A stretch of DNA of 64,000 nucleotides from an uncultured Alistipes sp. (GTDB taxonomy: Bacteria > Bacteroidota > Bacteroidia > Bacteroidales > Rikenellaceae): NCBI GenBank assembly GCA_944320685.1, contig CALUIK010000001.1, positions 372,001-436,000 of the forward strand, in the 5' to 3' direction. Numbering within the stretch: position 1 is the stretch's first letter; the number at the start of each line of letters is the position of its first letter. Made by a program: the position numbers and the translations under genes. This document shows positions 3,305 to 55,800 of this stretch, in pieces. Below the pieces are notes generated by a model. The model saw only the letters and a program-made list of their open reading frames with translations, had not been told where the DNA came from and did no database searches.

Positions 3305-4495
3305 ATGAGACGAACGATACTTTTCATGATGCTTTGGCTGACAGCTGCGACATGCGCCGTACAGGCCGAAGAGACCGGTCGGAGAAAAGAGGCGACACCG
3401 GCACACGTCAGGGTGGGTGCCGAACGCACAGAGGTATACCTTCCAAAGATAGAGGGCCGTCGTGTGGCCGTACTGGCAAACCATACGGCTATGGCAGGCG
3501 GCCGCCATCTGGTCGACATGCTCTGCGACGAGGGAATCGACGTAGCGGGGATATTCTCTCCCGAACATGGGTTCCGCGGCAGCGCCGACGCCGGCGAGCA
3601 TGTCTCCAACTCGGTCGACGAAAAGACAGGCATACCCATCTGGTCGCTCTACGACGGCGGCTCGCAACGCCCTTCGGAGCAGACGATGCAGGCCTTCGAC
3701 GTGCTGCTCGTGGACATGCAGGACGTGGGGCTGCGCTTCTACACATACTACATCACGATGCTGCGCATGATGGATGCCTGCGCCGATGCCGGCCGCAAGG
3801 TGATCGTCCTCGACCGTCCCAACCCCAACGGCATGTATGTCGACGGCCCGATCCTCGACATGAAATACAAGTCGGGCGTGGGCGCGCTCCCGATACCCGT
3901 CGTACACGGCCTCACGATGGCCGAGATCGCCCTCATGGCTCGCGGCGAAGGGTGGTGCAGGCCGTGCGATCTGGAGGTGGTGCCATGCGAGGGATATACC
4001 CATCAGACGCGCTACACGCTGCCCATCGCACCGTCGCCCAACCTTCCGACACAGCACTCGATATATCTCTACCCTTCGATATGCCCCTTCGAGGGTACGG
4101 TCTGCTCGCTGGGGCGCGGCACAGAACACCCCTTCGAATGCTACGGCCACCCGGATTACCGCGACGGCGACTTCACCTTCACCCCCCGTTCGGCGGCCGG
4201 AGCGAAGAATCCGCCCCTCAAGGACAGGACCTGCCACGGCCGTGATCTGCGCGGCTTGGACGACGAGTCCGTCATCTCGGCAGGCTTCGACCTCGGGTAT
4301 GTAATCGACGCATACGGGAATCTGGAACTGGGCGAAGAGTTCTTCACCCCCATGTTCGAAAAGCTCGTAGGTGTGGATTACGTGCGCCGCATGATAATCG
4401 AAGGGCACACGGCCGACGAGATACGTGCCGTATGGCAGGAGGACGTGGAGCGGTTCCGCCAGCAGCGCCGGAAATACCTGCTATACGACGAATAG
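3305..4495 (+). CDS. namZ: Exo-beta-N-acetylmuramidase NamZ-like (DUF1343)
   Basis: A 396-residue exported protein with a signal peptide (hydrophobic residues 5-20, AVQAEE cleavage region). It carries DUF1343 hallmarks: FSPEHGFRG near residue 81, LLVDMQDVGLRFYTY, and VLDRPNPNG. NamZ enzymes remove N-acetylmuramic acid from the non-reducing end of peptidoglycan fragments in the periplasm, feeding cell-wall recycling or scavenging. It has its own promoter. Its 3' end overlaps the convergent transporter gene by 15 bases. The family assignment is firm; the exact substrate is inferred from the characterised member. Confidence 0.9.
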   Translation: MRRTILFMMLWLTAATCAVQAEETGRRKEATPAHVRVGAERTEVYLPKIEGRRVAVLANHTAMAGGRHLVDMLCDEGIDVAGIFSPEHGFRGSADAGEHVSNSVDEKTGIPIWSLYDGGSQRPSEQTMQAFDVLLVDMQDVGLRFYTYYITMLRMMDACADAGRKVIVLDRPNPNGMYVDGPILDMKYKSGVGALPIPVVHGLTMAEIALMARGEGWCRPCDLEVVPCEGYTHQTRYTLPIAPSPNLPTQHSIYLYPSICPFEGTVCSLGRGTEHPFECYGHPDYRDGDFTFTPRSAAGAKNPPLKDRTCHGRDLRGLDDESVISAGFDLGYVIDAYGNLELGEEFFTPMFEKLVGVDYVRRMIIEGHTADEIRAVWQEDVERFRQQRRKYLLYDE

Positions 4496-5038
4496 CGTCG
4501 GGACGTAGTAGATTGCTATGCCGGCAACGGCCGAGAGCACGATAAGCAGGATCGGGTTGACCTTGCGCACCGAGCCTGCCATGGTGGCGGCAAAAAGCAC
4601 CCAGCTCCATGCGTCTATAAAACTGTGACCGTCCTCCGACGATGGGAATATGAGCAGCAGCGCCGCTGCCCCGATCATACCGATCACGACGGGGCGCATG
4701 CCCGCGATTATACCTTTCACGTAACGGTTGCGCCGCAGCGAGAGAAAGAAACGCGTGATGAGGATCATAAGCGTCAGCGCCGGCAGACATACCGCCACCG
4801 TCGCCACCACGGCCCCCCAGAACCCCGCGACAGTATATCCGACATACGTGGCCGAATTGATGGCTATGGGGCCGGGCGTCATCTGCGACACGGCGACAAT
4901 GTCGGCGAACTCGGCATTCGACATCCATGCGTTCTGTACCACCACCTCGTTCTGTATGAGCGAGAGCATGGCATAACCGCCGCCGAAACCGAAGAAGCCT
5001 ATCTTCAGGTAGCTGTAAAACAGTTGCAGGTAGATCAT
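4481..5038 (-). CDS. Chromate-type transporter, second half-subunit
   Basis: A 185-residue ChrA-family half protein (PF02417). It has the signature FFGFGGGYAMLSLIQNEVV near the N-terminus and the conserved SQMTPGPIAINSATYVGY, followed by five or so hydrophobic helices. Two such halves act as one chromate/sulfate-like anion exporter in the inner membrane. The ATG at 5038 overlaps the stop of the upstream half by four bases (ATGA), so translation is probably coupled. The 3' end overlaps the convergent namZ end by 15 bases. Real substrates of these two-gene systems are often unknown. Confidence 0.88.
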   Translation of the reverse strand: MIYLQLFYSYLKIGFFGFGGGYAMLSLIQNEVVVQNAWMSNAEFADIVAVSQMTPGPIAINSATYVGYTVAGFWGAVVATVAVCLPALTLMILITRFFLSLRRNRYVKGIIAGMRPVVIGMIGAAALLLIFPSSEDGHSFIDAWSWVLFAATMAGSVRKVNPILLIVLSAVAGIAIYYVPTLFVV

Positions 5039-5577
5039 CGGCCCACCTCCTTTCTGCGCAGGGCCACCCACAAGGCCCCCGCCGCCGCTCCGGCCACGAG
5101 CAGGTAGACGGGCGAAATACCGAAATGCCACACCACTACGGCCACGGCCGCGGCTACGCCAATCAGTGTCCAATGCATGCCTTTGACAAAGCCTGCAATA
5201 GGGGCTATTATCAGCGCCACCACAGCGGGCCGCATGCCCTTGAACGCCGCGTCGACGACGGCGTTATGGCGTATCGAGGCGAAGAACACCGCCAAAAGGA
5301 GTATCACCGTGAATGCCGGCACTACAACCCCTGCCAAAGCCGTAACGGCACCGCGGTAACCGTAGAGCTTGTATCCCACGAATACCGACGTGTTGAGCGA
5401 TATCGGCCCGGGCGCCGACTGCGCCAATGTCAGCAGGTCGAGGAAGTCGCGCTCCTCGATCCAGCCGCGGTTGCGGATCACCTCGTTCTGTATGATTGGT
5501 ATCATGGCATAGCCGCCCCCGAAAGTGAACAGTCCGATCTTGAAGAACGACCAGAAAAGTTCCAGATATCTGTTCAT
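5035..5577 (-). CDS. Chromate-type transporter, first half-subunit
   Basis: A 180-residue ChrA-family half protein with LFTFGGGYAMIPIIQNEVI and the motif AQSAPGPISLNTSVFVGY. It is homologous to the next gene, with which it forms the usual split pair of oppositely oriented halves. The start at 5577 has only 23 bases before the methyltransferase gene end at 5601, so all three leftward genes, including the methyltransferase, may form one transcript. It ends in ATGA overlap with its partner. Confidence 0.88.
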   Translation of the reverse strand: MNRYLELFWSFFKIGLFTFGGGYAMIPIIQNEVIRNRGWIEERDFLDLLTLAQSAPGPISLNTSVFVGYKLYGYRGAVTALAGVVVPAFTVILLLAVFFASIRHNAVVDAAFKGMRPAVVALIIAPIAGFVKGMHWTLIGVAAAVAVVVWHFGISPVYLLVAGAAAGALWVALRRKEVGR

Positions 5578-5600
5578 CGCTTGCGTGATTTAAAAGAACG

Positions 5601-6485
5601 TTACCGCTGCATGCGACAGAAGGTCCCGAGAGGCAGGCGCTTGCCAGCCCTGTCCGCGAAACACAACTCGCCGTACTCGTACTCACCCGCCCCGAAACAC
5701 TGCCGAAGGGCCGTATGCGCCACCACGGGAGAGAGCCCCATCGAATAGAGGTTCAGCACCACGAACCCGCGGCTGTCGAGCAGTTCGGAGCAGCACTCCA
5801 GCATCTCGAGGATATTCTCCTCCAGTACCCATTTCTCGCCGGCCGCGCCGCGCCCGTATGCCGGCGGGTCAAGTATTATGCCGTCGTAACGGCGGCCGCG
5901 CCGCACTTCGCGGCGCACATATTTCAAGGCATCCTCCACGACCCAGCGTATATCCTTCAGGCCGCTCGCCTCCATATTCCCGCGCGCCCATGTCACCACC
6001 TGCCGCACCGAATCCACATGGGTCACGCGTGCCCCCGCGGCACATGCCGCCAGCGACGCACCCCCCGTATAGGCAAATAGGTTCAGCACCTCGGCCGCTC
6101 TGCCGCTCGCGCATATGCGCGAGACATGGTCGTATATGTAGTCCCAGTTGGCCGCCTGCTCGGGGAAGAGTCCCACATGCTTGAACGATGTAGGCACAAG
6201 GCGCATACACAGACACATCTCTCCGCGCCTGTACTCTATCGGCCATCCCTGAGCCATGCATCCGTCGCGGAAGGCCCAGCGGCCGCGTTCGTCGCCGCCT
6301 GCGCCAGTGAGACGCGTGAAGATGCCGTCGGCAAGGCGGTCCCACTCCGCCGCGTCGAGCGTCTTGCCCCATACGGCCTGCGGTTCGGGACGCCGCAGCA
6401 CATATCGGCCGAAACGTTCGAGTTTCTCCGAGCCGCCCGAGTCGAGCAATTCGTATGCGGCAAAATCGGGTGTCAGAATATCCAT
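5601..6485 (-). CDS. Class I SAM-dependent methyltransferase, RlmI/RlmK-like
   Basis: A 294-residue protein similar to the catalytic part of COG1092 23S rRNA cytosine/guanine methyltransferases. The SAM-binding loop is VLNLFAYTGGASLAACAAGARVTHVDSV (shown in part: NLFAYTGGAS), and motif IV is DPPAYGRG. The stop lies 20 bases before the next gene on the same strand. The usual N-terminal PUA domain of RlmI is absent, as in other Bacteroidota members. An RNA substrate is likely but the target nucleotide is not deducible. Confidence 0.82.
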   Translation of the reverse strand: MDILTPDFAAYELLDSGGSEKLERFGRYVLRRPEPQAVWGKTLDAAEWDRLADGIFTRLTGAGGDERGRWAFRDGCMAQGWPIEYRRGEMCLCMRLVPTSFKHVGLFPEQAANWDYIYDHVSRICASGRAAEVLNLFAYTGGASLAACAAGARVTHVDSVRQVVTWARGNMEASGLKDIRWVVEDALKYVRREVRRGRRYDGIILDPPAYGRGAAGEKWVLEENILEMLECCSELLDSRGFVVLNLYSMGLSPVVAHTALRQCFGAGEYEYGELCFADRAGKRLPLGTFCRMQR

Positions 6486-47701: not shown

Positions 47702-49261
47702 CTACAATGCGTTTATCTCATCATTGAGCCATGCAAGACGGTTGTTCAGACGCGATACCATGCGCGACACCGCCGCATCGTACGAGAGCGACTGGTCGCC
47801 GTTGGGGCCGACGTTGTTCTGCCACATCGTCCAGTCGAGGTCGGCCGACTTCTTCAGTTCCTTGCTCTTCTTGGAGATATAGCCGCCTGCAGCCGCAAAG
47901 ACGGGATAAAGAACCTTCCAACGCTCCTTGAGCAGCGCGCGGAACTCCGGATCCTCGAACAGGCGCGGATACCACAGATAGTTGCGGCAATGCCATCCGG
48001 TATCCTGCGTGAAGGTGAGCCAGTCGTAATCCCACATGGGGCCTGCGCAGAGTTTGCCGCCGCGGTCCTTATAGATATATGTGCTCTTCGGGTGCAGCCA
48101 TTCATAGTGGTATATCAGCTCCGATATAAGGTATATGTCAGCGAAGGAGAGTATGTCGATATAATTCTTGTAGCCCTTTTCGGGGTCGAGCCAGTCGTCG
48201 CTGTAAAGCACCCTTTCGGCCTCGTTGAAGTAGTTGCGTATATATATGAACTGCGGCGAACCTATGTCATCGGCGTCCGGTGTATTGATGTTCACCGGAA
48301 AACCCTTCATCTCCGAGCGGAATTTGTTCACCTCGTCGTAATATGTATCCAGCTCGAGGATGTATCCGCCCGAAATATCGTCATCCTCTGCCATCTCCGC
48401 ATAAGGCGGCATCTCGTTTATGGCGAGACGGTTCTCGTCTATGCGGATCTGCTCGCACAGGTAATAGCAGCCCTTGTGCTCGCCATTCACGAACAGCTCG
48501 ACAAAGACCCCGTGCGGCGTCCACGCCAGCGCACTGCGCTGACCCAGATAGAAGGCCACATCGTTGCGCAGCAGCGTGCGGTCGACATAGTTGGCCAACA
48601 GCACCCATCGTTTGTGTTCGGGCATGCCGAGCACCGCGGTGCGTTTCCCGAACTTGAACTTATACGGCTTCTTGGGATAACCCCATGTCGAGTTGCCGCG
48701 GCCCGCGATCTCTATGTCGGCAGTGGACAGGTCGTCGTATCCTGTCCCGCCGTCTATGGCTATCGTGGCCTTGCGCCAATCATCCTTGCTCGTTATTGGC
48801 AGGCCGCTCGACGTCCTGATCGAGACCACAGGCAGGCCCGTGAAGGGGAAATCGAGTTCGACCACATATTCGGCAGCCTCGCCGTTTACATTCTCCACCC
48901 TGTAAGTCACGGGTTTGCTGAAATCGACACGCGAGACACCGCTCCACTGCCTGACACCGTTCACATATGCAGTCTGATCATCGGGCAGGGTAAAAGTGGG
49001 CGTAAGGGTGCACGACCCGTCGACCAACGGGGTCGAGCCCTCGATAGAGCCGGTTATGAGATGTTTTACGGCATCTATACGGCATGTCATATTCGACGTC
49101 ATGCGCGGGTTGTTGCGCGTATCGAACCAGAACCTCTCGATGGCAGGGGGCTCGGCATCGGGATCCACAATCCTGACCCCATCGTCCGTCCCCGCTTTGC
49201 CGCATCCCGCCAGCGACATGACCACAGCGAGGAGCGCCGATGCTACAAATATTCTTCGCAT
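47702..49261 (-). CDS. CotH-like kinase-fold lipoprotein
   Basis: A 519-residue lipoprotein (signal MRRIFVASALLAVVMSLAGC). After an N-terminal beta domain (residues ~25-140) comes the CotH domain (PF08757) with IEIAGRGNSTWGYPKKPYKFKFGKR, HKRWVLLANYVDRTLLRNDVAFYLG, YYLCEQIRIDENR and GYILELDTYYDEVN, then MWDYDWLTF. CotH proteins resemble protein kinases; the spore-coat CotH phosphorylates proteins outside the cytoplasm. In Bacteroidota the role is unknown, possibly surface phosphorylation. The ATG at 49261 was chosen because the longer frame begins in divergent upstream DNA. Confidence 0.85.
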   Translation of the reverse strand: MRRIFVASALLAVVMSLAGCGKAGTDDGVRIVDPDAEPPAIERFWFDTRNNPRMTSNMTCRIDAVKHLITGSIEGSTPLVDGSCTLTPTFTLPDDQTAYVNGVRQWSGVSRVDFSKPVTYRVENVNGEAAEYVVELDFPFTGLPVVSIRTSSGLPITSKDDWRKATIAIDGGTGYDDLSTADIEIAGRGNSTWGYPKKPYKFKFGKRTAVLGMPEHKRWVLLANYVDRTLLRNDVAFYLGQRSALAWTPHGVFVELFVNGEHKGCYYLCEQIRIDENRLAINEMPPYAEMAEDDDISGGYILELDTYYDEVNKFRSEMKGFPVNINTPDADDIGSPQFIYIRNYFNEAERVLYSDDWLDPEKGYKNYIDILSFADIYLISELIYHYEWLHPKSTYIYKDRGGKLCAGPMWDYDWLTFTQDTGWHCRNYLWYPRLFEDPEFRALLKERWKVLYPVFAAAGGYISKKSKELKKSADLDWTMWQNNVGPNGDQSLSYDAAVSRMVSRLNNRLAWLNDEINAL

Positions 49262-49433
49262 AGATATGATAACCTGTTGCTTTACCGCCGTCTCCGATAC
49301 AACATATAGGCGGAGGCACGGATGTAACCGTTTTGCAATATACGAAAAAAAAAGAAAAAACACCCTCGCCGATGCAAGATTCCGCGCCTTGCGCGATTTA
49401 ACAGGTAGAACAAACCCCAAAAACTCGGAAATT

Positions 49434-50234
49434 ATGAAAAGCATAAGATTGTTTATCGGTGCCGTCGGGCTCGTCATATCGGCTCTGGCGCTCCATTCGT
49501 GCAACGACAACGAATACTACGACTACGGGTATCTGCGCCCCACGGCTCTGGTAACGGTACGTCCGCAGGCCGACGGCACATTCTTCATGCAGCTCGACGA
49601 CTTCTCGGTCCTATACCCCGAGAACATGAGCGAGTCGCCCTTCGGCGACAAGGAGGTGCGCGCGCTGGTCAACTACACCGTCAACGCTTCGGATAAGGAT
49701 ACCCGCACGGTATACGCCAATGTCCACGTCAACTGGATCGACAGCATCCGCACCAAGATGCCCGTCGCGGATCTGGGCGAAGAGAATAATGTGGTCGAGT
49801 ACGGCAACGACCCCATCGAGATCGTACGCGACTGGGTCACCGTAGCCGAAGACGGATATCTCACGCTGCGCATACGCACCCGCTGGGGACAGCGCTGCAC
49901 GCCCCATGTCATCAACCTCGTCGGGGGCGTCAATCCCGAGAACCCCTACGAGTTCGACCTGCACCACGACGCCAACGGCGACGAGTACGGCGAGATGGGC
50001 GACGCCCTTATAGCCTTCAACCTCAACGACCTGCCGCGCAGCGAAGGCGACAGGGTCACCATCAAGCTCAATTGGCGCTCGTTCTCCGGATACAAGAACA
50101 CGGAATTCACGCTGCGCCTGCGCCCCGCAGACGGCGATACGGGCGGCGTTGACGGTGACGGCGATACGGGCGACGACACGGGCAGCGGCGAACTCGACCC
50201 CGCGAGCGTTGCCTACAGCCGATATGTCGAATAG
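49434..50234 (+). CDS. NigD-like lipoprotein
   Basis: A 266-residue lipoprotein (signal KSIRLFIGAVGLVISALALHSC). The body matches the NigD-like family of Bacteroidota: GYLRPTALVTVRPQADGTFFMQLDDFSVLYPENM, then VHVNWIDSIRTKMP and YLTLRIRTRWG. Family members include nigD of a bacteriocin-type cluster but most have no assigned role. The last 35 residues are a repetitive Gly/Asp tail (GDTGGVDGDGDTGDDTGSG). It is divergent from the CotH-like gene and upstream of the sigma factor, with no clear promoter. Confidence 0.82.
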   Translation: MKSIRLFIGAVGLVISALALHSCNDNEYYDYGYLRPTALVTVRPQADGTFFMQLDDFSVLYPENMSESPFGDKEVRALVNYTVNASDKDTRTVYANVHVNWIDSIRTKMPVADLGEENNVVEYGNDPIEIVRDWVTVAEDGYLTLRIRTRWGQRCTPHVINLVGGVNPENPYEFDLHHDANGDEYGEMGDALIAFNLNDLPRSEGDRVTIKLNWRSFSGYKNTEFTLRLRPADGDTGGVDGDGDTGDDTGSGELDPASVAYSRYVE

Positions 50235-50387: not shown

Positions 50388-50957
50388 ATGACAAACAACG
50401 CGACACCTAACGAAGAGCAGATACTCCGACTCGCACAGAGCGGCGATACGACGGCCATGAAATCGTTGTACTGCCGCCATGTGAGGTACCTGACAGCCGT
50501 ATGCTCGCGCTACATAGCGCTCGACGACGACGTGAAGGATGTCATGCAGGAGGCGTTCCTGCGTATCTTCTCCTCGCTCCGCCGCTTCGAATACAGGGGC
50601 GATGGGTCGTTCAGGGCTTGGATGTCACGCATCGTCGTAAACGAGTCGCTGAAACATATACGCCGCGGCCAACGCCTCGATACGGTCGAACTGAAACAGG
50701 AACAAATGAATACCGCCGACGAAGAACCTCAATCCGAGGATATTCCCGCCGAGATACTGCACGCGATGATACGCAGTCTGCCGTCGGGATACCGTACCGT
50801 ATTCAACCTCTATGTCATGGAACAAAAGAGCCATAAGGAGATAGCCGAGCTGCTCGACATCAGCGAGAGCACCTCGGCCTCGCAGTTGCATCGCGCCAAG
50901 GCCTTGCTGGCCGATAAGATAAAAGTGTACAGAACCGCAAACGCCGCATCACGATGA
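50388..50957 (+). CDS. ECF RNA polymerase sigma factor
   Basis: A 189-residue sigma-70 family factor with region 2 (AMKSLYCRHVRYLTAVCSRYIALDDDVKDVMQEAFLRIFSSLRRFEYRGDGSFRAWMSRIVVNESL) and region 4 (IRSLPSGYRTVFNLYVMEQKSHKEIAELLDISESTSASQLHRAKALL). It directs RNA polymerase to an extracytoplasmic-stress regulon. Its stop overlaps the start of the next gene by four bases (ATGA), typical of sigma/anti-sigma pairs. The 153-base gap before it holds GC-rich inverted repeats but no recognisable housekeeping promoter, so it may transcribe itself. Confidence 0.93.
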   Translation: MTNNATPNEEQILRLAQSGDTTAMKSLYCRHVRYLTAVCSRYIALDDDVKDVMQEAFLRIFSSLRRFEYRGDGSFRAWMSRIVVNESLKHIRRGQRLDTVELKQEQMNTADEEPQSEDIPAEILHAMIRSLPSGYRTVFNLYVMEQKSHKEIAELLDISESTSASQLHRAKALLADKIKVYRTANAASR

Positions 50958-52354
50958 AAGAGTTGAGGCATAACGAAGATGATTGGCTGCACGGCATACG
51001 CGACCGTCTTGCCGACTTCGAGACCGACGCCCCCGACGGGCTGTGGGATGATATAGTCCGGCGCCTCGGCATGCCGGATACCGCCGGTAGCGAAAATTCG
51101 GAAGACGACGGCGGCGACGTTCGTGACGCAGGCTCCATAACGCAGCGGCGCATCATACCGTTGTGGGCGCGCCGCGCTGTCGCCGCAGCGGCGGCAGTTG
51201 CCGTAATACTCACTTCGGGCATAATGCTGCTGCGCGACGGCGGCACGGCAGACCCCCTGCGCAAAGTCCTGCCCGCCACCAGTGCCACAGATGCCACCGC
51301 CACCCCCATCGCGGACGCAACCCCGCCCACGGAGGCCGCCGCACCGGAGAATGCCATCCGCGGCATCAGTACCTCCGCCGTGCCCGCGGTGAGCCAAGAC
51401 AACCGGCCCGCCGTAACGAAACCCGGATCGGGTACACGGGCGGCCACCGACAAGGACAGCGACACCGCGGCGGATAACACCGCGGATACCCGTATTCCGG
51501 AAACGGCTGCATCCGACGCCACCGGCACCAAAGGACACAGTGAGACGGATACCCCGACGGCGCCAGCGGGAGAGGAGCGGCAGCGCGGCACCACCCTCCG
51601 CGAGCGTTACGCCGACACATATGCCGATGCCGCCGACCGCCGCAAGGGCAATGCGCCGCGGCACGCAGCACACGGCCTCAGGATCGGGGCATACGCTTCG
51701 GGCGGCGCCGCCGCATACGCCGTACACGGGCGCGCGAACGGGGTATCTTCCTCGATCATGGCCGCAAATGATACAAATTGGGAAGGCAGCCCGCTTCTCG
51801 GGATGCTGCTATACAACCGCGGCAAGGATACCGAGACGCGCACGCGCCACCACCAGCCGATACGTGCCGGCATCTCGTTCACCTATATGATAAACGACCG
51901 CTTCGGCCTCGAAAGCGGCCTGACATATGCCATGCTGGTGTCGGACATGCACGACGGCAGCGACAAACACTACTACGACGCCCGCCAGCGCCTGCACTAC
52001 CTCGGCATACCCCTCAACATAAAGTACGACATCGCCCGCTGGCGGCGGTTCGGTGTATACGGCTCGGCAGGCCTCCTTGCCGAACAGTGCATAGCTGGAA
52101 ACACCCACAAGGAGTACGTGCTCGACGGAAACACCTACCGCACCTCGTCCGAGGCGGTCCCGACCAAGCCGTTCCAACTCTCGGCCAACCTCTCGGCAGG
52201 CGTAAGATACGACTTTACACCTGCGGTGGGCATATACGCCGAGCCCGGCGTAAGCTACTACTTCGACGACGGCACCACGCTTGAGACCGTCTACAAGCAG
52301 CGGCCCCTGAATTTCAACCTCAACGTCGGCATCAGATTCACCGTCGGCAGGTAA
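50954..52354 (+). CDS. Dual-membrane-spanning anti-sigma-like protein (Dma type)
   Basis: A 466-residue protein of unusual layout. Residues 1-70 are a charged cytoplasmic domain with WLHGIRDRLADFETDAPDGLWDDI, residues ~73-93 a single inner-membrane helix (RRAVAAAAAVAVILTSGIMLL), residues ~95-239 a disordered Ala/Thr/Asp/Pro linker long enough to cross the periplasm, and residues ~240-466 an outer-membrane beta-barrel (LRIGAYASGG...QLSANLSAGVRYDFTPAVGIYAEPGVSYYF, ending NVGIRFTVG). It overlaps the sigma gene by four bases. Dual-membrane anti-sigma factors of this design were described in Bacteroides thetaiotaomicron; the role here is inferred. Confidence 0.82.
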   Translation: MKELRHNEDDWLHGIRDRLADFETDAPDGLWDDIVRRLGMPDTAGSENSEDDGGDVRDAGSITQRRIIPLWARRAVAAAAAVAVILTSGIMLLRDGGTADPLRKVLPATSATDATATPIADATPPTEAAAPENAIRGISTSAVPAVSQDNRPAVTKPGSGTRAATDKDSDTAADNTADTRIPETAASDATGTKGHSETDTPTAPAGEERQRGTTLRERYADTYADAADRRKGNAPRHAAHGLRIGAYASGGAAAYAVHGRANGVSSSIMAANDTNWEGSPLLGMLLYNRGKDTETRTRHHQPIRAGISFTYMINDRFGLESGLTYAMLVSDMHDGSDKHYYDARQRLHYLGIPLNIKYDIARWRRFGVYGSAGLLAEQCIAGNTHKEYVLDGNTYRTSSEAVPTKPFQLSANLSAGVRYDFTPAVGIYAEPGVSYYFDDGTTLETVYKQRPLNFNLNVGIRFTVGR

Positions 52355-52500: not shown

Positions 52501-55500
52501 TTATCTCACAGGAAAATCGGGGATGGCGGGTTTCTCGCGCCCCTCCGCGGCAAGGCGTTCGCGCGCCACCTCTATGGCCTTGAGCAGCTGCGCATCCTCG
52601 CCCATGAAATCCTCGTAGGGGTCGTTGAATATCTCGATGTCGGGCTCCACGCCGCGGTTCTCGATGATGAACTCGCTGCCGTCGGCAGCATAGGGCGCAT
52701 ACGACGGCGTGACGATAGAGCCGCCGTCCACCGTCGGCACCATACCGCTGTACCCGACTACGCCGCCCCACGTACGGCGGCCGATGACCGTACCGAGCCT
52801 GTTGTACTTGAAGCGGTAAGGGAAGAGGTCGCCGTCCGAGGCCGAATACTCGTTCACCAGAAGCACCAGAGGCCCGACGAACGTACCCACGGGGTTGACC
52901 GACCCCTCGGTCTGGCCCGTGTGCATCGTATAGTATGTCGGCGTGCGCTGCAGGCGCTCGATGATCATGGGCGAGACATTGCCGCCGCCGTTGCCGCGGT
53001 CGTCGATTATGAGGGCGCGCTTGCCCAGCTGCGGATAGTAGTGCTTGACGAACTCGTTGAGGCCGTCGACACCCATGTCGGGGATATGGATATATCCCAC
53101 CTCACCGCCGGTCGCCTCGTTCACGAGGCGCGTGTTGCGCTCGACCCATGCGTAGTAGTTGAGCTGCGCCTCGCTTTCGAGCGGCGTCACGAGAACCTTG
53201 CGCGCACCCTCCACGGAGGGCGACGAATTGACCTCCATCTCCACCAGACGGCCGGCCTTGCCCACAAGCGTCTCGTATATGTTGGCCACATCCTTCAGCG
53301 GACGGCCGTCCACCGCGACGATATAGTCGCCCGCCTTGACATCCACCTCGGGCAACGTCAGCGGCGAGCGCGTCGCGCCGTTCCAGTTGGCGCCGCGGGT
53401 GATGCTGTCGACACGGAAATACCCGCTGCGGTCCTTGCTGAACTTCGCGCCCAGCATACCCACCTTGATCCGCTCGGCGTGGGGGCGCATGTGCAGCGAG
53501 GCGTCGTTCGAGTAGGCGTGGCCCACATTCAGTTCGCCGATCATCTCACCCACGATATAGGTGAGGTCGGTGCGGTGGCCCACGTGCGGCACCAGAACGG
53601 CATACTTGTCATGCACCGCTTTCCAGTCTACGCCATGCATATCGGGATCGTAGAAGAAGTCGCGCATGCGGCGCCACAACTCGTCGTATACCTGCCGCCA
53701 CTCCTCGCGGTAGTCGATGCGTTTCTTCAGGCCGCCGAAGTCGGCGCCCTTGTCGGGGGCCGAGACACGCCCCTGCGGGCGGTCCATCACGGCATAAGTG
53801 CCGCCGGCACGCACCAGCACCTTGTCGCCGCCGGCGATGAAGTCCACACCGACACCCAGATCGGTCTCCTCGCGTTTGTCGAGGTCGTACATCTGTGTAT
53901 TGCCGCCGCGGTTGTAGTATACCTTGTTGCCGAACATGCGTATGTTGTAGTACCGGCCAGCCGTAGAGACGGGCAGCTCGACAATGCGCGCCTCGGTGCC
54001 GTCGAAGTCGTAAACCACGCTCTCGGCTTCGGGCGCAGCCTCCGTTTTCTCCGGCGTCTTTTTCGCATCGGTTTGTGCTGCGGCGTCCTCCGTCCCGACT
54101 GCCGCCACGGCATCGTTCACGGGTTCGAAAGGGCGAGCCGCACCCTCGGCCAAAGGCAGGATGTAGAGTTTGTCCATCGACCCGTATGCATGGTTCCACT
54201 CCGTACTGCTGTATATCGGGTTGAAGGTGCGCGACGACGAGAAGAGCAGGTATTTGCCGTCTTCGCTGAAGACGGGGTTGGAACAGTTGTACCAACCGTC
54301 GGTCACGACATGTTTCTCGCCCGAAGCGATGTCGTAGACCACGATATTGTTCATCTGCTGTTCGGGGCGCACATAGACCAGATAGCGCGAATCGGGCGAG
54401 AAGGCCCCGCAGCCGAACGTCGAGACACCCGAACGCTCCACCTCGGTGGTGCGACGGGCAGCCACATCGGTTATGTTGAGCGTATTGCGTTTGTCGGTCC
54501 ACACTATGAGCTTCGAATCGGGCGACCAGCGGTAATCGAATATGTACGTGGCAATATCCTCCACAACGGGTTCGGCCCTGCCTCCCGCAACATCCTGCAC
54601 GTAGATGAGGAACTCGCCGCTGCGGTCCGACACGAAGGCCATGCGGCGGCCGTCGGGCGAATACGTGGCGTTCATCTCGCGCGCACCGCTAGTATCGGTC
54701 ATATTGTATGTCACGCCCTCCTTGACAGGCACGGAGAAGATGTCGCCGTGGGCGCACACCAGAAGCCGCTCGCCGCGGGGCGAGGCCGCAACGTCCGTCA
54801 CGTCGTCGCGCACGTCGCGCAGCTCGGTGCGCGAGTAGCTGTTGTCGTTGTCGATCTCGACCTCCACCTTGCGCTCCTCGAGCGTCTGCGTATCGAACAG
54901 GTAGATGTATCCTCCCCGCTCGTAGGCTATGGTGTTCCGCCAGATGGTGGGAAACTTGATGTCGTAATCCGCACACGATGTGACCATGCGGTGCTCCTTG
55001 GCGGCGAGGTCGTACATGTAGAGGTTCATCACGTCGTTGTCGCGGTCAGACAGGTAGAATATCCTGCCGCCGTCGGCCGTCCACATGGGGAATGTCTCCT
55101 GACGTTTCGTCGAGGTTATCTGCTCGCTGCGTTTGGTGTCGAAATCGAAGATGCGTATGTCGTCGGCCATGCCGCCCTCGTAACGTTTCCATGTGCGGAA
55201 CTCGCGGAAGACATAGTTGTATGCCAGCCGTTTGCCGTCGGGTGAGTAGGAGCAGAAACCGCCGTTGCGCAGCGGCAGCGGCTCAGGCATGCCTCCTTCC
55301 GCCGAAACGGTATACAGCTGCCCGCAGAAACTGTTGAACGACTCGCTGCGCGAACGGAACACTATACGGCTGCCGTCGGCCGTCCATCCCATCACTATGT
55401 TGTTCGGTCCCATACGGTGGCCCATCTCGTCGCCCGCGTCGCCAGTAAAGGTCAAGCGGCGCGGCTCGCCGCCCTCGGCCGGCATCACATATACCTCGGT

Positions 55501-55755
55501 ATTGCCGTCGTACTGCCCCGTGAAGGCAATGGTCTTCCCGTCGGGCGAGACGTGCGCAAAGGATTCATACCCCACATGCGAGGTGAGGCGTCGCGCCGTG
55601 CCGCCCTCGGCGGGGACACTGTAGAGGTCGCCCGCATAGGAGAATATGACCTTGTCACCCCCGTATGCAGCGAAACGCATGAGACGCGCCTCGTCTGCCG
55701 CGGCCGTTGCGGCGCAAAGCACCGCGGCCAGTGCCGTAAACATCGTTTTCTTCAT
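52501..55755 (-). CDS. Tricorn-like periplasmic serine protease (S41)
   Basis: A 1084-residue exported protease: signal peptide at 1-20, a WD40/TolB-like beta-propeller (repeated VSPDGKTIAFTGQYDG, WTADGGRIFYLSDRD, YSPDGRRMAFVSDRSGEF), a second propeller, a PDZ segment (VDVKAGDYIVAVDGRPLKDVANIYE) and a C-terminal S41 protease domain. The catalytic region is LLVNEYSASDGDLF, with Ser near 971-973, then GGVVGYSG and ENRGVEPDIEI. It degrades peptides produced by larger proteases in other systems. It is the last gene of the uronate operon; its tie to that pathway is unclear. ATG 55755 used. Confidence 0.88.
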   Translation of the reverse strand: MKKTMFTALAAVLCAATAAADEARLMRFAAYGGDKVIFSYAGDLYSVPAEGGTARRLTSHVGYESFAHVSPDGKTIAFTGQYDGNTEVYVMPAEGGEPRRLTFTGDAGDEMGHRMGPNNIVMGWTADGSRIVFRSRSESFNSFCGQLYTVSAEGGMPEPLPLRNGGFCSYSPDGKRLAYNYVFREFRTWKRYEGGMADDIRIFDFDTKRSEQITSTKRQETFPMWTADGGRIFYLSDRDNDVMNLYMYDLAAKEHRMVTSCADYDIKFPTIWRNTIAYERGGYIYLFDTQTLEERKVEVEIDNDNSYSRTELRDVRDDVTDVAASPRGERLLVCAHGDIFSVPVKEGVTYNMTDTSGAREMNATYSPDGRRMAFVSDRSGEFLIYVQDVAGGRAEPVVEDIATYIFDYRWSPDSKLIVWTDKRNTLNITDVAARRTTEVERSGVSTFGCGAFSPDSRYLVYVRPEQQMNNIVVYDIASGEKHVVTDGWYNCSNPVFSEDGKYLLFSSSRTFNPIYSSTEWNHAYGSMDKLYILPLAEGAARPFEPVNDAVAAVGTEDAAAQTDAKKTPEKTEAAPEAESVVYDFDGTEARIVELPVSTAGRYYNIRMFGNKVYYNRGGNTQMYDLDKREETDLGVGVDFIAGGDKVLVRAGGTYAVMDRPQGRVSAPDKGADFGGLKKRIDYREEWRQVYDELWRRMRDFFYDPDMHGVDWKAVHDKYAVLVPHVGHRTDLTYIVGEMIGELNVGHAYSNDASLHMRPHAERIKVGMLGAKFSKDRSGYFRVDSITRGANWNGATRSPLTLPEVDVKAGDYIVAVDGRPLKDVANIYETLVGKAGRLVEMEVNSSPSVEGARKVLVTPLESEAQLNYYAWVERNTRLVNEATGGEVGYIHIPDMGVDGLNEFVKHYYPQLGKRALIIDDRGNGGGNVSPMIIERLQRTPTYYTMHTGQTEGSVNPVGTFVGPLVLLVNEYSASDGDLFPYRFKYNRLGTVIGRRTWGGVVGYSGMVPTVDGGSIVTPSYAPYAADGSEFIIENRGVEPDIEIFNDPYEDFMGEDAQLLKAIEVARERLAAEGREKPAIPDFPVR

Positions 55756-55800
55756 TATCGTACTTTTTTCGGGTTTCACTCACAGTGCTGCGCCTGCCCT

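Follow-up and report, generated by a model that had tools for sequence, protein, structure and literature searches.

A probable NigD-Das-Dma operon in an uncultured Alistipes sp., with a promoter-like motif that recurs among its relatives

Overview

We found that an ECF sigma factor gene in the window (the whole 64,000-nucleotide stretch analysed, from the contig CALUIK010000001.1 of an uncultured Alistipes sp.) overlaps by four bases with the gene of a predicted envelope-spanning anti-sigma factor, and that this Das/Dma-type pair very probably forms one self-transcribed operon with a nigD-like gene upstream. The best reading of the locus is a self-regulated NigD-Das-Dma operon that answers outer-membrane stress. 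Both the kind of regulator and a link to NigD are already known, and pairs of this kind have been published as Dma/Das and as EcfO/Reo. To this the present analysis adds that NigD-Das-Dma recurs widely outside Bacteroides, along with a motif, a small predicted regulon and a division into two groups. These results bear on two questions in the Bacteroidota, namely how cells sense the state of their outer membrane and what role the widespread NigD lipoproteins play. Because gene order and motif recur, NigD can be connected directly with the Das/Dma switch in many relatives that are not Bacteroides. The regulon predicted in this way is small (NigD, Das, Dma and one DUF4840 lipoprotein), with a short DNA site as a handle.

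Organization of the locus

The first-pass annotation had described an ECF sigma factor coupled to a dual-membrane anti-sigma factor with likeness to Dma. The pair was borne out by Pfam sigma domains and by a modelled helix and barrel, and the layout agrees with the four-part description of Dma proteins given in PMC13088901, while the nigD gene and the promoter-like site had been overlooked. The features, in window coordinates, are as follows.

49373..49400, + strand: promoter-like site, TGCAAGATT-N12-CGATTTA, a likely target of the operon's own sigma factor (motif from the comparison of nigD upstream regions)
49434..50234, + strand: nigD-like lipoprotein gene, 266 aa, with a lipobox-like LHSC followed by an acidic NDNEYYD
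50388..50957, + strand: ECF sigma factor gene (Das-like), 189 aa (Pfam Sigma70_r2 and Sigma70_r4_2)
50954..50957, + strand: ATGA, in which the sigma stop codon and the anti-sigma start codon overlap (sequence)
50954..52354, + strand: Dma-like anti-sigma gene, its product predicted to extend as a single chain from the cytoplasm into the outer membrane
50975..51073, + strand: N-domain, residues 8-40, predicted to bind sigma (alignment of 32 sequences; joined model of a relative)
51161..51235, + strand: predicted inner-membrane helix, residues 70-94 (AlphaFold2; hydropathy)
51236..51664, + strand: disordered linker rich in Ala, Thr, Asp and Pro, residues 95-237 (pLDDT below 50; identity among relatives near the shuffled level)
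51665..52351, + strand: outer-membrane beta-barrel, residues 238-466 (model and alignment)

The ATGA overlap was already remarked on in the first-pass annotation, and comparably tight sigma/anti-sigma junctions occur in many relatives. The nigD product exceeds the curated cut-offs of both Pfam families, with 113.1 bits (cut-off 22.6; 1e-32) for NigD_C PF17415 and 59.1 bits (cut-off 24.3; 4.7e-16) for NigD_N PF12667, and its lipobox-like motif marks it as a candidate surface lipoprotein. A divergent gene for a CotH-kinase-type lipoprotein (47702-49261, - strand) lies upstream of nigD, with the promoter-like site in the gap between the two, and a gene for a Tricorn-type protease with PDZ and S41 domains (52501-55779, - strand) converges with dma.

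The closest named loci (L019, L020 and L021) belong to records that bear the label uncultured Alistipes or Alistipes sp., L019 having 86% identity over its sequenced part only. The host genome encodes one Dma-like protein. A search of 36 further genomes from this genus gave matches in 8, and the system is therefore patchy within the genus, although many of those genomes are incomplete.

Architecture of the Dma-like protein

AlphaFold2 placed the barrel and the inner-membrane helix almost exactly where they had been proposed from the letters (residues 240-466 and 73-93). The best 19-residue mean hydropathy of the helix is 2.4, and it is followed in the model of the whole Dma-like protein by 143 residues with pLDDT below 50. 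In the alignment of 32 sequences, E23, P27 and L30 of the N-domain are invariant and W11 and W31 nearly so; the long first loop of the barrel, modelled with low confidence, carries the invariant residues W276, P280, L282, G283 and N288. A search of solved structures by sequence alone gave no match up to an E of 1. Among the 25 NCBIfam matches listed, only the ECF superfamily model TIGR02937 exceeded its cut-off and none was named ECF21; a TDE1717-type barrel was rejected, its match falling far under the cut-off.

Sigma binding was modelled in a relative, with sigma factor and N-domain joined into one chain, and the resulting model was confident (pLDDT 87.7, pTM 0.78). The N-domain blocks reached pLDDT 80-96 in this chain, compared with 48-65 in the model of the window's whole Dma-like protein without sigma. 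The joined model links two proteins of another species across a 3-residue bridge and had a deeper alignment than the whole-Dma model, which may account for part of the gain. From this model we predict that the N-domain holds the sigma factor. The relative's modelled sigma resembles the anti-sigma-bound forms in SigW/RsiW and CnrH/CnrY (rmsd 5.6 over 153 and 6.1 over 150, respectively), with RpoE/NepR at 5.3 over 142, and fits RNA-polymerase-bound sigmaE worse than any of these (25.9 over 154). However, SigG1, which is listed without an anti-sigma partner, fits equally well (4.8 over 142), and sigmaE/RseA ranks first by Z yet superposes badly (14.6 over 159), so the compact shape of sigma is no proof of inhibition. 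To our knowledge, RsiW, CnrY and RseA do not run on into an outer-membrane barrel.

Among 400 random pairs drawn from 89 dereplicated proteins, identity was 0.21 in the linker (shuffled 0.197), 0.432 in the N-domain and 0.409 in the barrel, and by sequence the linker behaves like a spacer. Its length in the 89 proteins ranges from 94 to 177 residues (mean 130.6, sd 15.4). Special selection on this length, as for a conserved ruler, was rejected: the range is no tighter than plain indel drift, and we make no such claim because the short cytoplasmic linker (20.8 residues, sd 6.3) scales as drift predicts, with the square root of length. By way of illustration only, 143 residues across a gap of 20-25 nm would exert a computed pull of approximately 7-10 pN if the persistence length is 0.5 nm, as we assume.

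The protein could instead be an ordinary inner-membrane anti-sigma factor that is cut by proteases, its barrel being a signal-receiving cap clipped before or during assembly and not a standing tether. The linker, which lacks conserved sequence, would be easy to cut, and for most ECF anti-sigma factors cleavage is the known means of release. We nevertheless consider this account fairly unlikely. The barrel appears to be more than decoration, since it is conserved about as well as the N-domain and has invariant residues in its first loop, and the Reo protein of P. vulgatus is described as spanning all compartments (PMC13114119). Both observations are still compatible with cleavage as the step that releases sigma.

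Recurrence of nigD beside the sigma/Dma pair

To follow the gene order among relatives, we surveyed 121 loci (80 titled, 40 from other genomes, and the window), using profiles derived from the window genes together with the sequences they matched. The sigma gene adjoins a Dma-like barrel gene in 116 of them; the five without an adjacent pair, namely L019 at a contig end, L145, L154, L160 and the fusion L169, were dropped. A nigD gene adjoins 74 of the 116 pairs, lying upstream on the same strand in 57, upstream and divergent in 13 and downstream in four. After removal of two identical rows among the 57, the same-strand count is 55 of 114 and the total 72 of 114. An initial set of 96 loci, each with both sigma and Dma, had given 56 same-strand upstream, 5 upstream divergent, 1 downstream and 34 not found. 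The 42 pairs of the enlarged survey beside which no nigD was found comprise 17 from Chryseobacterium, 13 from a distant paralog group and 12 from the window's larger clade, a few of the last having NigD matches too weak to count; NigD is therefore not required in every Das/Dma system.

At the level of genomes, NigD was present in 42 of 53 Bacteroidales genomes with a strong Dma match versus 31 of the 242 others (295 in all, identical for the NigD and Dma searches; Fisher 4e-21), a comparison that ignores shared ancestry and uses a Dma cut-off (E<=1e-19) chosen after the list was seen. A nigD-like gene immediately follows the pair in L149, L165 and L166 (genus g26, same family), whose NigD matches are distant, and in L174. 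The host genome itself holds two further NigD-like genes (G000:C7:118253 and G000:C6:100803; L100 and L101), and the promoter motif was looked for before these two genes and not found.

A promoter-like motif upstream of nigD and the predicted regulon

Comparison of the regions upstream of nigD gave the consensus TGCAAG[AG]TT[TC], followed after mostly 10-11 bases by [CGT]G[AG]TTTA; in the window, the first base of the site is 61 bases from the nigD ATG. When 47 dereplicated same-strand loci were each scored as held-out data in a five-fold scheme, 42 sites came out above the 99% line of dinucleotide shuffles and 34 of the 47 above the best of 1880 shuffles, leaving five loci under the motif threshold. 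The controls gave 0 of 47 on the reversed strand and 0 of 43 in the stretch between nigD and sigma, and the site thus lies before nigD and not before the sigma gene. An earlier control with mononucleotide shuffles had put 54 of 56 loci, five of them divergent, over its 99% line. In L043, which has no adjoining nigD, a good motif match stands directly before sigma. Taken together, the TGCAAG-type site is likely the promoter used by the sigma factor of its own operon.

Within the window, the pattern matches only at its position before nigD. In the whole host genome, the pattern without mismatches matched only this site, as often as the reversed control pattern (one match). When the pattern was fixed at the window's spacing and up to two mismatches were allowed, there were two matches and no control match; with spacing one base shorter, the host genome had no match. 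The second match (C10:21408) ends 40 or 67 bases, depending on the choice of ATG, before an ORF for a DUF4840 lipoprotein, whose gene is predicted from these sequences to be one further target of the sigma factor. In the numbering of this locus (L202; G000:C10), the motif has two mismatches and spans 1501-1528, and the ORF, running from 1569 or 1596 to 2216, encodes a lipobox followed by SDDD. Across nine genomes, the exact same-strand pattern matched in only two, the window's genome and G057, and exact patterns therefore miss most of the sites found by the weight matrix. The match in G057 is at a place other than that genome's nigD operon and does not precede a NigD gene, one control match occurred in G093, and none of the five other nigD-first genomes tested had the exact pattern at its own operon.

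The extent of this regulon also bears on the idea that the barrel senses a surface ligand such as a glycan and so controls polysaccharide use instead of responding to outer-membrane stress. The opposite strand does carry a gene for a sialidase-like BNR-repeat protein some 3 kb upstream of the operon, and glycan sensing is hypothesised for Dma2 by the authors of PMC13088901. We judge it distinctly unlikely here, given that no SusC/SusD-type gene was present among the five neighbours scanned and that, beyond NigD, the predicted regulon adds one DUF4840 lipoprotein.

Comparison with known systems and proposed mechanism

According to PMC13088901, Dma1, Dma2 and Dma3 of B. thetaiotaomicron are proteins of this kind. 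As described there, Das1/Dma1 and Das2/Dma2 share with the window an N-terminal anti-sigma domain, one helix, a long disordered tether, a C-terminal barrel and an adjacent ECF sigma factor. NigD1 is linked to Dma1 in that species, where the extra vesicles of a dma1 mutant depend on NigD1, and in the window nigD stands beside the pair. The differences, as far as that source describes them, are that B. thetaiotaomicron has three named Dma proteins whereas the host genome has one; that the operon partner of Dma2 besides das2 is BT_1557, whereas nigD is likely the first gene of the operon here; and that the vesicle link is known for Dma1 of B. thetaiotaomicron, while the window locus is known from its sequence. 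In Dma3, the sigma domain is fused to the rest (PMC13088901). In such fusions a single polypeptide comprises the sigma domain, a membrane helix and the barrel, whereas the window has two proteins and a distinct N-domain. Natural Dma3-like fusions were also seen in P0121 (541 aa) and L169 (553 aa; 4266-5924, - strand). As models of the complex, the natural fusions were rejected, because P0121 has no N-domain evident by eye between sigma and the membrane helix and P0122 is cut.

The EcfO/Reo systems of B. fragilis and P. vulgatus are likewise of the same kind and layout (PMC9308784, PMC13114119). In P. vulgatus, these papers describe that loss of reo or exposure to the toxin BcpT, thought by the authors to stress the envelope, induces a regulon including three nigD genes, the toxin also inducing the sigma gene. 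One of the three carries a locus number, M0N98_03762, that adjoins those of ecfO and reo (03761 and 03760), much as nigD adjoins the pair in the window. An EcfO motif is said to have been identified (PMC7366714).

On the preferred reading of a NigD-Das-Dma operon that answers outer-membrane stress, BAM would insert the barrel into the outer membrane, with the chain still anchored in the inner membrane, and the N-domain, as predicted from the model of a relative, would keep hold of the sigma factor. Damage to the outer membrane or failed barrel assembly would loosen this hold, as suggested by EcfO/Reo of P. vulgatus (PMC9308784), with either cleavage or pulling as the release step. Free sigma would read the TGCAAG-type site at 49373-49400 (the motif being observed and its use presumed), leading to more NigD, sigma and Dma. 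By analogy with its counterparts in P. vulgatus and B. thetaiotaomicron, NigD would travel to the outer membrane and assist in protecting or shedding it, and fresh Dma would switch the system off. A bolder version, which we hold to be doubtful, treats NigD as the sensor's other half. This surface lipoprotein, a product of the same operon, would dock on the long first loop of the Dma barrel and tune the hold on sigma; the operon would thereby gauge the outer membrane by way of a NigD-Dma complex and close its own feedback, with the unconserved, entropically stretched linker serving as a mechanical tether and no protease cascade involved.

A sister group with divergent nigD

Sigma and barrel sequences were joined for 114 loci (398 columns), and their midpoint-rooted tree splits the same-strand loci, in which the window stands beside the Alistipes loci L021 and L020, from the divergent loci, with group support of 0.41 and 0.38. 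Among the divergent loci are one from a Phocaeicola record (L092) and others from four genomes that share the window's genus. The window falls outside the group of L092, a placement to be read with this weak support and in a tree that includes no verified ecfO-reo sequence. L092, at most a candidate ecfO-reo locus, has a divergent nigD and belongs to the group with TGCAGT-type sites, whereas the window belongs to the group with a same-strand nigD and a TGCAAG-type site.

In the 13 divergent loci, a TGCAGT- or CGCAGT-type site points towards sigma in 11, towards nigD in 10 and both ways in nine, with L138 the one locus in which the fixed pattern finds a site in neither direction. These sites also speak to the possibility that nigD adjoins the pair by chance and is under its own control, which we regard as highly improbable: the distance between nigD and sigma does vary, from overlap to several hundred bases, the two other host NigD genes are without the motif and 42 pairs are without an adjoining nigD, but nigD stays adjacent in three different arrangements, and the motif precedes nigD in same-strand loci, with none in the nigD-sigma gap, and faces both ways in most divergent ones.

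A stricter TGCAGT-type pattern gave 26 matches in 10 of the 13 genomes searched and none for the reversed-pattern control. Seven of these matches lie before a sigma gene, six before a NigD gene, 11 before other genes (seven of which look lipoprotein-like by eye) and two before no ORF of at least 60 aa. Sister-group sites were also seen before genes for a lipocalin-like lipoprotein (L175), what we take to be a serpin-like lipoprotein (L200), a set of related Trp/Gly-rich lipoproteins (L182, L184 and L191) and a small barrel-like protein under its Pfam cut-off (L197). Across L175-L200, a wider envelope regulon is possible.

The matching but different site of the sister group provides a built-in specificity contrast. 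In the DNA-reading helix of region 4, the position of the window's S161 is S or N in 52 of 55 same-strand sigma factors versus K in 11 of 13 divergent ones. This exchange goes along with the change of site from AAG to AGT, a suggestive correspondence drawn from two groups only.
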